From: Elusimicrobiaceae bacterium
Lineage (GTDB): Bacteria; Elusimicrobiota; Elusimicrobia; Elusimicrobiales; Elusimicrobiaceae
Direction of reading: 5' to 3'
NCBI GenBank assembly: GCA_017525025.1
Contig: JAFXUJ010000014.1
Span: 62,001 to 126,000 of the forward strand
Length of the DNA stretch: 64,000 bases
Shown here: positions 2,454 to 54,920 of the stretch, in pieces
Layout of the letters: the number at the start of each line of letters is the position of its first letter
Position numbering within the stretch: position 1 is the first letter of the stretch
Notes under the pieces: model-generated
Database searches by the model: none
What the model was told of the DNA's origin: nothing
The model's input: the letters and a program-made list of their open reading frames with translations, nothing else
Translations under genes and position numbers: made by a program

Positions 2454-3752
2454 TTACAAAAAAGACCTCGTTACGGCCGGATCTTCCATGCACAAATATA
2501 CTTGCGTCTGCGGAAAAGTTTTACGCAGTAGCGGCACCAAGAACCGGTAAACCTCTTGGCGTTGCGCGGTATCATAACGCATTTTACCGTCAAAATCTAA
2601 TAAGAATTCGCCGTCTAATATAAAATTCTCGGGGAAACGCGTTTCTATCTGTTTTTTCAATTCGCGGCTAAAGCGTAACGTTCCCACGCTAATCCACGCA
2701 ATTTTATCCGGGGGCAAGGTATCCGCCATTTGCTGAATCGTACGCACATAATCGGGTTGGTAGCCGTCATAAATTACCACCGGATCAAAATGAAAACCAA
2801 GCCGGTATCCGGCCTTAGCTACTTCACAAGCGGCCGCTAAACGAGCGGTTAAATCCGGCGTGAAATGTTCGGCACGGTCCGTAATTTTTGAAGAATTGAC
2901 CGACCACGATACCACTACATTTTCACAACCGCCTACTTGTAAAAGTCCGCCGATATTCGTGCTTTTTGTCTTAAATTCAAACTGCCATTGGGGACGTTCC
3001 CGAAAGAACGGTACAAGTTTTTGGGAGTATTGCGTTAAATCGTCAAATACCAGCGAATCGGTAAATTCTCCGCTGCCGATACGGGGCCGGTCAAATAATC
3101 CTTTGTTAAATTTACCGACCGCTAATTTTTCCAAAAATTCATCTATATTGGCCGGCAACAAAACGGCGTGCAAATTTTGGTATTGTTGCAAAAAGCAATA
3201 CTCACATTCAAAACGGCAGCCAAAACCTAAATTGATTAAATTGTATCCGCACCCTGCCGAGCCGCAACTGCACGGGCACGGTTTTAAAAAATCGTATTTT
3301 TCGCGGTGTATAAATAACGTTTCCGTCCGGCGGGAAAAATTATCACTCCCTACTTGGGTTTTGCCGTCTGTTTCTTTAAAATCCGCTTTCGGGAATGCGG
3401 CACGCACACGGGCTGCCAACTCACTATCTGTTACAGCCGTTTCTATATAAACAGTTTTGGGATAAAAAGGCCGCGGCGTTAAATCTGCCCGGCGGGAAGG
3501 GTCTAATTCCAACTTGGGCAAATAAAATTGATTCTTAGCGGCGGTTTTAAACGTGGCGGGATAGCGGCGTTTAAGCAGCTTTTTTTTAACCGCTTCAAAA
3601 GTTAATTTTTCTTCCACAGGCAGCAGCTCCCGCGGGTCCATTTGCTCCCGCTTGGCAATTTCATATACCAAGCGCACGAGTTCCCGCAATTTATTCGGGC
3701 CGATTGACGGAAGTTTTTGTTTTACTTGTTGTTCCAGTTCCGCTACGTTCAT
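2454..3752 (-). CDS. SPL family radical SAM protein (spore photoproduct lyase-like)
   Basis: 432 aa. The radical SAM cluster is C179-x3-C183-x2-C186 (CRFECEYCFLQ), preceded by a cysteine-rich stretch (CPCSCGSAGC at about 159-168) that could hold a further metal site. The family is related to SplB, which reverses 5-thyminyl-5,6-dihydrothymine in spore DNA. Members in bacteria that do not sporulate have no settled substrate, and DNA photoproduct repair is only a hypothesis here. The start overlaps the aldo/keto reductase stop as ATGA (3749-3752), indicating translational coupling. It is the last gene of the addB-to-SPL operon. Confidence 0.85.
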   Translation of the reverse strand: MNVAELEQQVKQKLPSIGPNKLRELVRLVYEIAKREQMDPRELLPVEEKLTFEAVKKKLLKRRYPATFKTAAKNQFYLPKLELDPSRRADLTPRPFYPKTVYIETAVTDSELAARVRAAFPKADFKETDGKTQVGSDNFSRRTETLFIHREKYDFLKPCPCSCGSAGCGYNLINLGFGCRFECEYCFLQQYQNLHAVLLPANIDEFLEKLAVGKFNKGLFDRPRIGSGEFTDSLVFDDLTQYSQKLVPFFRERPQWQFEFKTKSTNIGGLLQVGGCENVVVSWSVNSSKITDRAEHFTPDLTARLAAACEVAKAGYRLGFHFDPVVIYDGYQPDYVRTIQQMADTLPPDKIAWISVGTLRFSRELKKQIETRFPENFILDGEFLLDFDGKMRYDTAQRQEVYRFLVPLLRKTFPQTQVYLCMEDPAVTRSFL

Positions 3753-29785: not shown

Positions 29786-30060
29786 TTATTTTTTCAAGTT
29801 AGTTGGATCTGCGTTGGAACAATACTTGCTTAGTGTACACTTTTCACATAATGGCTTGCGCGCGGGGCAAATACTGCGTCCGTGCAAAATAAGTGCTATT
29901 GCCACCCACCCCCAATACTTATACAGAATAAGTTTTGTCAGATCTTTTTCCACTTTGATGGGAAAAGTAATCACCCAACATGACATCGGCCGTTTTGCGT
30001 ATCCTCTGTCCCTTGACGTGATTGCCACCACGCCCATACGGGGCACTTGCCCACGCAATA
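29786..30060 (-). pseudogene. nth (endonuclease III) pseudogene fragment
   Basis: The C-terminal portion reads as Nth including all four Fe-S cysteines (CPARKPLCEKCTLSKYC). Upstream the RKTADVMLGDYF segment is present but in another frame. The roughly 75 bp between, which in the intact gene encodes the catalytic Asp (VDTH), are missing at the junction. 29862-29956 matches the intact nth at 31032-31126 with only two differences, while the flanks diverge clearly. No start, no catalytic Asp: non-functional. Confidence 0.88.
29862..29956 (-). repeat. 95-bp direct repeat, copy 1 (nth fragment)
   Basis: Same orientation as 31032-31126, 93 of 95 bases identical by eye. The two copies bracket the structured leader and the pilin-like gene. 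Confidence 0.92.
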
Positions 30061-30187
30061 CGGCTCAAATTTGAAAAAATCATATAATCATCTACAAAGT
30101 TAGTTTACGGTTCGTAAGTTTTGTAATTCGCAAAAATTCGCTCTTTACGAGCGGATTTTTTTGTTATAATGAATTTACAATTTAATT
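30061..30187 (+). promoter_or_regulatory. Intergenic region with promoter of structured leader copy 1
   Basis: The gap from 30061 to the pilin ATG at 30430 holds no gene. A -10 TATAAT lies at 30165-30170 with only a weak -35 (tcttta, 30142-30147). The segment TTACAATTTAA (30175-30185) is also present at the same place in leader copy 2. A short hairpin, CGCTC-tttac-GAGCG, followed by T7 lies just before the -10 and may be a degraded terminator. Confidence 0.6.
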
Positions 30188-30392
30188 CTGTTTTTGGAAC
30201 CGTATGCAGAATGCGGTGGACTGGCGAACAGCCGGTACAAGCAGACTCCAAAAGCAGTCGTTATCAAGCACAAAATAAACGGCTTAATTACCCGATTGTT
30301 TTGTGCTGAATGTTTGCCGTTCTTCGGAACGGCAAACTACGGCTGTTGTTTTGGGCTCCGTCTGCTTGACCCAAGATGATGGCCGTTTTTTT
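30188..30392 (+). ncRNA. Structured leader RNA with 3' terminator, copy 1
   Basis: Elements in order: CTGTTTTTGG (30188-30197); hairpin ACCGTAT/ATGCGGT (30199-30217); 5' strand of a long-range stem, AGCCGGTA (30230-30237); hairpin AGCACAAAA/TTTTGTGCT (30267-30307); an 11-bp hairpin capped by TTCG (30312-30337); 3' strand TACGGCT (30338-30344). Then a 17-bp G-U-containing terminator stem (30339-30355 with 30370-30386) with seven T. The terminator's 5' arm contains the long-range stem's 3' strand, so the two are mutually exclusive. Nine bases of the terminator loop (30360-30368) are perfectly complementary to 30238-30246. It controls the pilin-like gene 37 nt downstream. The same plan recurs at 54716-54920. 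I do not recognise a known riboswitch consensus. Confidence 0.75.
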
Positions 30393-30429: not shown

Positions 30430-30966
30430 ATGAAACAAGGTTTTACTCTCATTGAGTTATTAGTTGTCGTTTTAATTATTGGCATTCTGGCGACGGTGGC
30501 ACTGCCACAATACCAAAAGGTAGTAGAAAAATCAAAAGCCACTCAAGCATTGTCTGTGCTTAAATCTATTCAAGCTGCGCAACAAATGTATTATTTGAGT
30601 AACGGGCAAATGCCTTCTTCCTTCTCGGATTTAGATATAGAACTAAACTGGGACGGAAACACGACTTGGTTATGGGCACAAGCAGATGCCGCACTGGATA
30701 CTCGCTCTAATAAGGAGTGGTCCTTACAACTTACTTCCTCAGGAATATATATGGGCAGAATTTCCGGAGATTATAAGGGGGCAGGATTTATTTTATACAC
30801 CTTAAATCACAGAAACATGCCTCCTAACAGATTAATTTGCGCTGAACGGCGGTATGCCGGGCTCACTTTTTCAAAAACAAAGGGGGATTATTGTGAGAAA
30901 TTATATCACGCAAAACCAATCAGCAATTCAGGAACCGATGCTATTTACGCCTATTATATGCCTTAA
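30430..30966 (+). CDS. Type IV pilin-like protein under a structured leader
   Basis: 178 aa from the ATG at 30430, with AAAGGAG 6 nt upstream; the longer in-frame reading would start inside the terminator stem. Class III signal [14 protein letters not shown] with Phe+1 and Glu+5, then [19 protein letters not shown] and a soluble head of about 120 residues containing WDGNTTWLW and three Cys. Prepilin peptidase substrate, probably a minor pilin or pseudopilin. The stop is 1 bp from the end of the convergent nth gene. Confidence 0.88.
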   Translation: MKQGFTLIELLVVVLIIGILATVALPQYQKVVEKSKATQALSVLKSIQAAQQMYYLSNGQMPSSFSDLDIELNWDGNTTWLWAQADAALDTRSNKEWSLQLTSSGIYMGRISGDYKGAGFILYTLNHRNMPPNRLICAERRYAGLTFSKTKGDYCEKLYHAKPISNSGTDAIYAYYMP

Positions 30967-30967
30967 A

Positions 30968-31606
30968 CTATTTCACACTGCCCTTAGCGCAAAACTTGGC
31001 TAGTGTGCATTGAGCACACAACGGTTTACGGGCGGGGCAAATACTGCGTCCGTGCAAAATAAGCGCTATTGCCACCCACCCCCAATACTTATACGGAATA
31101 AGTTTTGTCAGATCTTTTTCCACTTTAACGGGATCTGTTTGTTTGGTTAGCCCCAGCCGAAACGCCAAGCGCTTGACGTGTGTATCCACCACAATACCCG
31201 CGGGTTTTTTGAAATAATCGCCCAGCATTACGTTAGCCGTCTTACGCGCCACACCGCGCAAGGTAAGTAAATCGTCCATATTCTGCGGCACTTCGCCACC
31301 GTATACTTCGCAAAGACGTTTAGACATTTCTATTAAACTAAGTGCCTTGCTGTGGTAAAACCCGGCCGAATGGATAATTTTTTCCACATCTTTAATGTTG
31401 GCTTTGGCTAAATCGTAAACCGTCGGATATTTTTTAAACAAATGCGGGGTAATGGTGTTCACGCGGGCGTCGGTACACTGAGCCGATAAGATAACGGCAC
31501 ACAGCAATTCCCATGCACTTTTATGGTGTAGCGGGATAATGTGTTTAGGATAGAGCCGTTTCAATTCTTTTAAAAACGGCTCTACGGGAAAATCTTTTTT
31601 AACCAC
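30968..31606 (-). CDS. nth: Endonuclease III
   Basis: 212 aa. HhH-GPD DNA glycosylase/AP lyase: catalytic K122 in LRGVARKTANVM, D141 in VVDTHVKR, and the 4Fe-4S cluster C190-x6-C197-x2-C200-x5-C206. The HhH hairpin reads LRGVA rather than LPGVG. It excises oxidised pyrimidines. Start is GTG at 31606 with AAAGGGG upstream; the first 8 bp overlap the znuB stop region, so it is translated from the zinc-uptake operon. Its 3' part is duplicated as the pseudogene at 29786-30060. Confidence 0.93.
   Translation of the reverse strand: MVKKDFPVEPFLKELKRLYPKHIIPLHHKSAWELLCAVILSAQCTDARVNTITPHLFKKYPTVYDLAKANIKDVEKIIHSAGFYHSKALSLIEMSKRLCEVYGGEVPQNMDDLLTLRGVARKTANVMLGDYFKKPAGIVVDTHVKRLAFRLGLTKQTDPVKVEKDLTKLIPYKYWGWVAIALILHGRSICPARKPLCAQCTLAKFCAKGSVK
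31032..31126 (-). repeat. 95-bp direct repeat, copy 2 (within nth)
   Basis: Counterpart of 29862-29956, about 1.17 kb apart, same orientation, two mismatches. Confidence 0.92.
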
Positions 31607-54715: not shown

Positions 54716-54920
54716 AAAAAAACGGCCGATACTATCAAGTCCACTCAATGTCTTAATAGTAACAGCCGTAGTCTGCCGCATAAAGCGGCAGACATTTGGC
54801 AAAACACGCCCAATGGATCAGATTGGTAATGTTGTGCCTCTACCGGCTATTTTTGGACTTGAGTGGAACTTTTGAATGCTTCAAAAGCACCCCGTATCGA
54901 ACATACGGCCCCAAAAACAG
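54716..54920 (-). ncRNA. Structured leader RNA with 3' terminator, copy 2
   Basis: Same 205-nt length and order as copy 1, read on the minus strand. CTGTTTTTGG (54920-54911); hairpin CCGTAT/ATACGG (54908-54892); an extra hairpin CTTTTGAA/TTCAAAAG (54887-54869); AGCCGGTA (54848-54841); hairpin GGCACAACA/TGTTTTGCC (54838-54798) with inner CCAAT/ATTGG. Then a 9-bp GTCTGCCGC/GCGGCAGAC hairpin (54793-54771), the TACGGCT strand (54770-54764), and a 14-bp terminator stem with one mismatch (54769-54756 with 54735-54722) and seven T. The AGCCGGTA/TACGGCT pairing has the same bulged G as copy 1 and again excludes the terminator stem. Confidence 0.75.

Follow-up and report, generated by a model that had tools for sequence, protein, structure and literature searches.

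The window, a stretch of 64,000 nucleotides from an Elusimicrobiaceae bacterium, carries a 205-nt leader RNA in front of a type IV pilin-like gene and a related leader on the opposite strand; their features are collected in Table 1. The preliminary description of this DNA had proposed the leader at 30188-30392, its 17-bp terminator stem with seven T, the pilin-like gene downstream and the copy at 54716-54920. All four were borne out, both leaders by covariance model matches and the gene by its N_methyl domain. The terminator stem reaches 19 bp if the two pairs beyond the bulge are counted. Compared with dinucleotide shuffles, the folding stability gives z = -7.9 for the 30 kb copy and -7.6 for the 54.7 kb copy, and 0 of 200 shuffles equals it.

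Table 1. Features of the two leader copies and their surroundings in the window
Feature	Position	Strand	Evidence or remark
Intrinsic-terminator-like hairpin just 5' of the leader	30132-30160	+	pattern scan
Putative leader promoter: TATAAT with TG one base 5' (extended -10 type), no good -35	30165-30170	+	sequence
Leader RNA, whole element	30188-30392	+	covariance model match 30188-30390, 164.9 bits, E = 1e-53
P1 5' strand CTGTTTTTGG (segment 1)	30188-30197	+	partner strand 30248-30257; 99.2% of the helix cells paired
Hairpin P2	30199-30217	+	compensatory changes at 6/6 pairs
Hairpin P3, contains AGCCGGTA	30219-30236	+	compensatory changes at 8/8 pairs
Hypervariable antiterminator strand CAAGCAGAC	30238-30246	+	perfect complement of 30360-30368
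P1 3' strand CCAAAAGCAG + TCG (segment 2)	30248-30260	+	partner is the P1 5' strand (OFF) or the terminator 5' arm (ON)
Hairpin P4	30267-30307	+	16/16 pairs covary; apical loop CTTAATTAC 30283-30291, palindrome TAATTA 30285-30290
Hairpin P5	30312-30337	+	5' neighbours: conserved A30309, covarying pair A30310-U30338, bulged U30311
Terminator hairpin	30340-30385	+	5' arm CGGCTGTT 30340-30347 (segment 3); 3' arm (segment 4) ends GGCCG 30385
Terminator-loop strand GTCTGCTTG	30360-30368	+	partner of 30238-30246
Terminator T run, seven T	30386-30392	+	sequence
Presumed regulated gene: type IV pilin-like protein, 178 aa, Shine-Dalgarno AAGGAG	30430-30966	+	PF07963 N_methyl, E = 1.8e-7
Second leader copy	54716-54920	-	model match 54718-54920, 134.9 bits, E = 1.7e-43
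ORF downstream of the second copy, 79 aa	54440-54679	-	no Pfam match

The hairpin just 5' of the leader probably ends the preceding transcription unit. A consensus scan found no full sigma-70 promoter upstream of the leader; TATAAT-like boxes occur upstream of many family copies. In the 54.7 kb copy, P1 is formed by 54911-54920 and 54847-54856, the terminator occupies 54723-54768, the variable strands lie at 54859-54867 and 54740-54748, and the P4 loop contains GATC.

Apart from the leader itself, the 3' end of the endonuclease III gene (nth) is duplicated at 29820-29963 and 30990-31133 (144 nt, 88%). The duplicates flank the leader and pilin unit on both sides, as if the unit came by recombination beside nth.

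Spread and conserved structure of the leader family

With the leader as query, blastn turned up more copies both in the source genome and in the genomes of 14 congeners. When 84,980 species, each represented by one genome, were scanned for an exact pattern, at least 117 stretches were returned. Most of the named records are Elusimicrobiota of the rumen and other gut habitats, Candidatus Avelusimicrobium among them. Eight records of the scan belong to other phyla; the covariance model described below gave them either no score or less than 25 bits, and they were taken as chance, as were P1-pattern matches in Bacteroidales, Sulfurospirillum and others (below 25 bits). From the loci 129 candidates were parsed, of which two were misparsed; the remaining 127 include 115 non-redundant members.

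The covariance model R1 (30 sequences, 207 positions, 67 pairs) finds matches in 62 of the 66 genomes of the genus and in 98 of the 341 genomes of the phylum, across 10 genera: two of the same family and several of a distant family, f21 (perhaps Endomicrobia), with single weak matches elsewhere. The source genome has 12 copies, two opposite-strand shadows being left out. The richest genome searched singly, G057, has about 45-48 among 58 rows, shadows and weak overlaps discounted; for an element of the riboswitch kind, such a number in a 1.5-Mb genome is unusual. In the genus search no more than 36 candidates were scored in any one genome, and its high per-genome counts are lower bounds. Gut Elusimicrobiota carry a large cis-regulatory RNA family, with one to about fifty copies per genome.

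The preliminary description had suggested building a covariance model; this indeed brought out both homologues upstream of other genes and strong covariation. In an alignment of 120 matches (118 distinct), which was fitted to R1 and whose counts lean towards that structure, 94.6% of the cells in nested helices pair, compared with 76.1% in shuffles. Both sides change at 55 of the 67 pairs, and doubly changed cells number 1408 against 396. Sliding the partners by 1-3 columns lowers pairing to 41-44%. Covariation is found at every pair of P2, P3, P4, P5 and the upper terminator stem; the pair beside P5, A30310-U30338 in the present leader, is A-U in 60 rows and G-C in 52, with the bulged U adjoining it. 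Most of the same helices are recovered by RNAalifold from the seed alone.

Rfam 15 yielded no match at the gathering threshold for the leader or for ten diverse relatives, and at permissive settings nothing below E = 0.36, the best match being an unrelated sRNA. The classes compared in the preliminary description (c-di-GMP-I/II, cobalamin, SAM, T-box, yybP-ykoY, fluoride and preQ1) likewise gave none at the gathering threshold, and its statement that the features of these classes are not seen holds. In the literature searched we found no paper on Elusimicrobiota pilin riboswitches or attenuators; the large 2017 bacterial RNA screen was outside this literature search, so the novelty rests mainly on Rfam. 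The attenuation leader family is real, widespread and new.

Several observations concern the margins of the family. Short-form relatives of about 165 nt occur in distant genomes of the phylum (L232, L246, L233, L234, L247, L235, L236); they keep the P1/P2/P3 and terminator design with different pairing sequences, and P4 is absent. The weak short-form match in L236 sits upstream of an ORF starting MKKDIHPTYTVAKV, by eye like ribosomal protein L31. In the 60 nt upstream of P1 (115 copies), a conserved aAATTTaaT directly precedes P1; farther upstream, 36 copies have an AGGAG motif, often followed by an extra 5' hairpin. In the source genome, locus L187 has two leaders about 1.4 kb apart (1501-1698 and 2882-3080), both with the P4 loop TAATTA, and the first precedes a glycosyltransferase-like ORF.

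Alternative folds of the leader

Four strands, the segments of Table 1, are predicted, with support from the comparison of copies, to form two exclusive folds. In the OFF fold, strand 1 would pair with strand 2 as P1 around P2 and P3, and strand 3 with strand 4 as the intrinsic terminator. In the ON fold, strand 2 together with the adjoining 5' variable strand would pair with strand 3 and the terminator-loop strand; the resulting antiterminator of about 20-25 bp with small bulges would form a three-way junction with P4 and P5 inside it and would abolish both P1 and the terminator. Strand 2, CCAAAARCAGYCG, has accordingly two possible partners, namely strand 1 or the terminator 5' arm CGGCTGTT...TTTGG.

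The arm kept across the family consists, in the 30 kb copy, of GCAGTCG (30254-30260), CCAAAA (30248-30253) and CAAGCAGAC (30238-30246), whose partners are ACGGCTGT(T), TTTTGG and GTCTGCTTG, respectively. The preliminary description had drawn a long-range stem between AGCCGGTA and TACGGCT. This is right for the 54.7 kb copy, where the stem coincides with the antiterminator of the family. The AGCCGGTA of the 30 kb copy, at 30230-30237, belongs to P3, of which it forms the 3' arm and the edge; the true arm is 30238-30260. The two hairpins said to be enclosed by the stem are indeed P4 and P5; as for the enclosing pairings, the second helix P1 (30188-30197 with 30248-30257) and the complementarity of 30238-30246 to 30360-30368 had been missed. 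The attenuation layout itself is supported, the terminator and the antiterminator being mutually exclusive in essentially every copy and also in diverged relatives.

In each of the 115 copies the variable strand matches the terminator loop as a perfect complement over 7-12 nt (mean 9.8), and swapping partners between copies leaves a mean of only 3.8; the swap and shuffle tests treat the copies as independent, although they share ancestry. This complementarity could be read as an OFF-fold pseudoknot that joins the terminator loop to the inside of P1, a reading that is possible and would also fit the covariation. As the sole explanation, the pseudoknot was replaced, since the variable-strand pairing is colinear with that of strands 2 and 3 and extends it into one long antiterminator around P4 and P5. 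Selection for orthogonality of the variable strands within a genome was considered and rejected: cross-complementarity within G057 (3.91) is no lower than between genomes (3.90).

In constrained folding, where energies ignore kinetics and pseudoknots, the ON fold is better in 114 of 115 copies when the terminator 3' arm is left out (median 8.4 kcal/mol), and the OFF fold is better in 110 of 115 when it is present (median 5.5 kcal/mol). Among eleven diverged loci, taken unaligned, the predicted MFE structure flips on removal of the 3' arm in most and a few are not clear-cut; several of them lack P4 and differ from the main family in the sequences of P1, the antiterminator and the terminator (GATAATCG/CGATTA type). 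In the main family the base strands of P1 and the terminator are near-invariant and their alternative pairing shows little covariation; we attribute this to the fact that each of these strands serves in three helices. The free variable strands change fast.

We presume the following order of events. The ON fold would be more stable until the terminator 3' arm is transcribed; once this arm emerges, the RNA would return to the OFF fold unless something holds the ON fold. The holding signal, perhaps a metabolite, a protein or RNA dose, may act at the junction of the antiterminator, P4 and P5. We place the sensor there because the best conserved unpaired bases of the ON fold cluster at this site (A 0.99, A 1.00, bulged U 0.90, A 0.91). 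An intrinsic terminator lies between the promoter region and the gene, and the helix that excludes it is evolutionarily kept. Judging from these sequence features, the leader is very probably a cis-acting two-state transcription attenuation element.

Downstream genes

With ORFs called by a simple longest-ORF rule, the next downstream gene is a same-strand ORF in 108 of 115 copies. The distance from the terminator to the ORF is mostly 30-60 nt (median about 38, few outliers), and the gene on the upstream side can lie on either strand (64 to 43). Among 105 scanned downstream products, 69 contain the N-methylation motif of type IV pilins. The others include seven glycosyltransferases of family 2, four outer-membrane beta-barrels, two heptosyltransferase-like proteins and two EcoRI-type methylases, with LicD, GT8, RgpF, polysaccharide pyruvyl transferase and others found once each. 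The pilin framing of the preliminary description is thus right for most copies and too narrow for about a third of them, where other, mostly surface-linked proteins follow. Since the named non-pilin products are mostly of this kind, we consider that the regulon is the cell surface and not pilins alone.

In the source genome the leaders C14:92188, C10:46301, C2:59156 and C2:49512 precede N-methylation matches. The source genome (G000, 1.55 Mb) has 58 such pilin-like motifs, only 4 of which lie directly behind a leader; the relative G057 has 113. Genes for EcoRI-type adenine methyltransferases lie directly behind leaders at L093:3006-3968(-) and L120:694-1656(+).

The palindromic P4 loop and competing explanations

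Of 112 P4 apical loops, 104 include a palindrome of 4 nt or longer; shuffled loops lead one to expect 41, and the highest number in 1000 shuffles was 57. Palindromes of 6 nt or longer occur in 78 of these loops, where 6 would be expected. The excess persists among the 39 distinct loops: 33 have a palindrome of at least 4 nt (13.7 expected) and 20 one of at least 6 nt (2.1 expected). The P5 loop, used as a control, is not enriched. Of 29 copies parsed from a single genome, 28 have a self-complementary P4 loop. The palindromes include TAATTA, TTATAA, TCATGA, TTCGAA, TTGCAA, TCTAGA, CTATAG, CTCGAG, GATC, GGCC, GTAC and AGCT among others. Of the eight exceptions, several were shortened by the parser and are palindromic in full, and three predict a GACG tetraloop. 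The palindrome is not a by-product of the hairpin's inverted repeat, because in the commonest loops, where 2 nt precede it and 1 follows, it is not centred on the hairpin dyad.

Similar loops are known in other RNAs. The commonest P4 loops are built like the HIV-1 DIS loop: of their 9 nt, 6 form a palindrome, with 2 nt on one side of it and 1 on the other. The 6-nt palindrome of HIV-1 DIS and the GACG loop of Moloney virus are retroviral dimerisation or kissing loops (PMC7357161); one P4 variant predicts a GACG tetraloop. Unlike these, P4 belongs to a bacterial mRNA leader and shows many palindromes, often AU-only, and the dimer is here a proposal from sequence. The guanidine-II riboswitch is likewise a regulatory leader, and its hairpin loops, of the form ACGR, are self-complementary; in that riboswitch they sit on two hairpins of the same RNA, whereas here P4 is the only such hairpin and the partner would be another molecule.

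A loop that changes its sequence yet stays self-complementary is most simply read as a kissing homodimer. We give about even credence to the proposal that the P4 loop kisses the same loop of another RNA copy, and that the leaders would act or be sensed in pairs. Several palindromes are AU-only and would give weak kissing pairs; the few short-form relatives without P4 imply that dimerisation cannot be essential to all. A further step, which we offer tentatively and hold to be rather unlikely, is that homodimerisation through P4 lets each leader sense RNA dose, in a regulon of surface genes with as many as about 48 leaders in a cell. Terminated or nascent RNAs of the same loop class would then kiss and hold the antiterminator junction, and the kissing would turn on a single one or some of the pilin and envelope genes.

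Attenuation could instead be governed by an ordinary metabolite or second-messenger riboswitch, with the P4 palindromes mattering only for local loop structure. We regard this as possible, if somewhat unlikely. The layout is that of an ON-riboswitch, with an antiterminator-closed three-way junction and conserved unpaired A and U, and terminator/antiterminator riboswitches such as c-di-GMP-I/II before pilin or adhesin genes share with our leaders the 5' position, the intrinsic terminator, the exclusive helix and a surface-gene regulon. However, the family matches no Rfam model and differs from those riboswitches in its junction, in the hypervariable copy-specific half of the antiterminator and in the palindromic P4 loop; a ligand pocket would be expected to have more conserved unpaired bases, and local structure does not explain a loop changed many times and still self-complementary.

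It is quite improbable that the element is a stand-alone small RNA (a promoter, a 205-nt structured RNA and its own terminator), the downstream gene being incidental. The compact unit with a putative promoter and terminator would agree with it; the complementary terminator loop would suit a permanent pseudoknot with the strand inside P1, and the palindromic loops hint at intermolecular work, here as a trans-acting dimer. Yet a same-strand ORF with a Shine-Dalgarno sequence stands typically 30-60 nt behind nearly all copies, upstream genes have no such fixed orientation, and the kept alternative pairing of strands 2 and 3 would be left unexplained. The terminated leader RNA could act in trans as well.

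Ribosome stalling on a leader peptide (trp type) or T-box control is extremely unlikely. The pairing of segments 1:2 and 3:4 versus 2:3 does resemble the four-segment trp/his attenuators, but the family has large structured hairpins P2-P5, no Rfam T-box or amino-acid leader match and no biosynthetic genes, such as those for amino acids, downstream; the leader peptide was rejected, since a Shine-Dalgarno sequence with an ORF is found in 17 of 115 leaders, below the 27.6 in shuffles. The chance of a dispersed, MITE-like repeat that happens to carry a promoter and terminator is negligible: the element is multi-copy and flanked in the window by the partial nth duplication, but its diverged copies retain pairing through compensatory change, its orientation and distance to the downstream ORF are fixed, and 2.9 million viral contigs contain no match to the pattern, for which reason a phage origin was also rejected.

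We believe that the reported leaders represent a large class of regulatory RNA that is apparently uncatalogued and belongs to a phylum of bacteria, living in guts and with termites, that has been little studied. One RNA switch would tie together an enlarged set of pilin-like genes, glycosyltransferases, outer-membrane proteins and an EcoRI-type methylase. The turnover of the P4 loop with its self-complementarity kept offers a directly testable case for homodimerisation in transcription attenuation. If the RNA-dose reading is true, attenuation would proceed by RNA-RNA self-recognition and not by a metabolite, possibly with bistable expression of variable surface genes.
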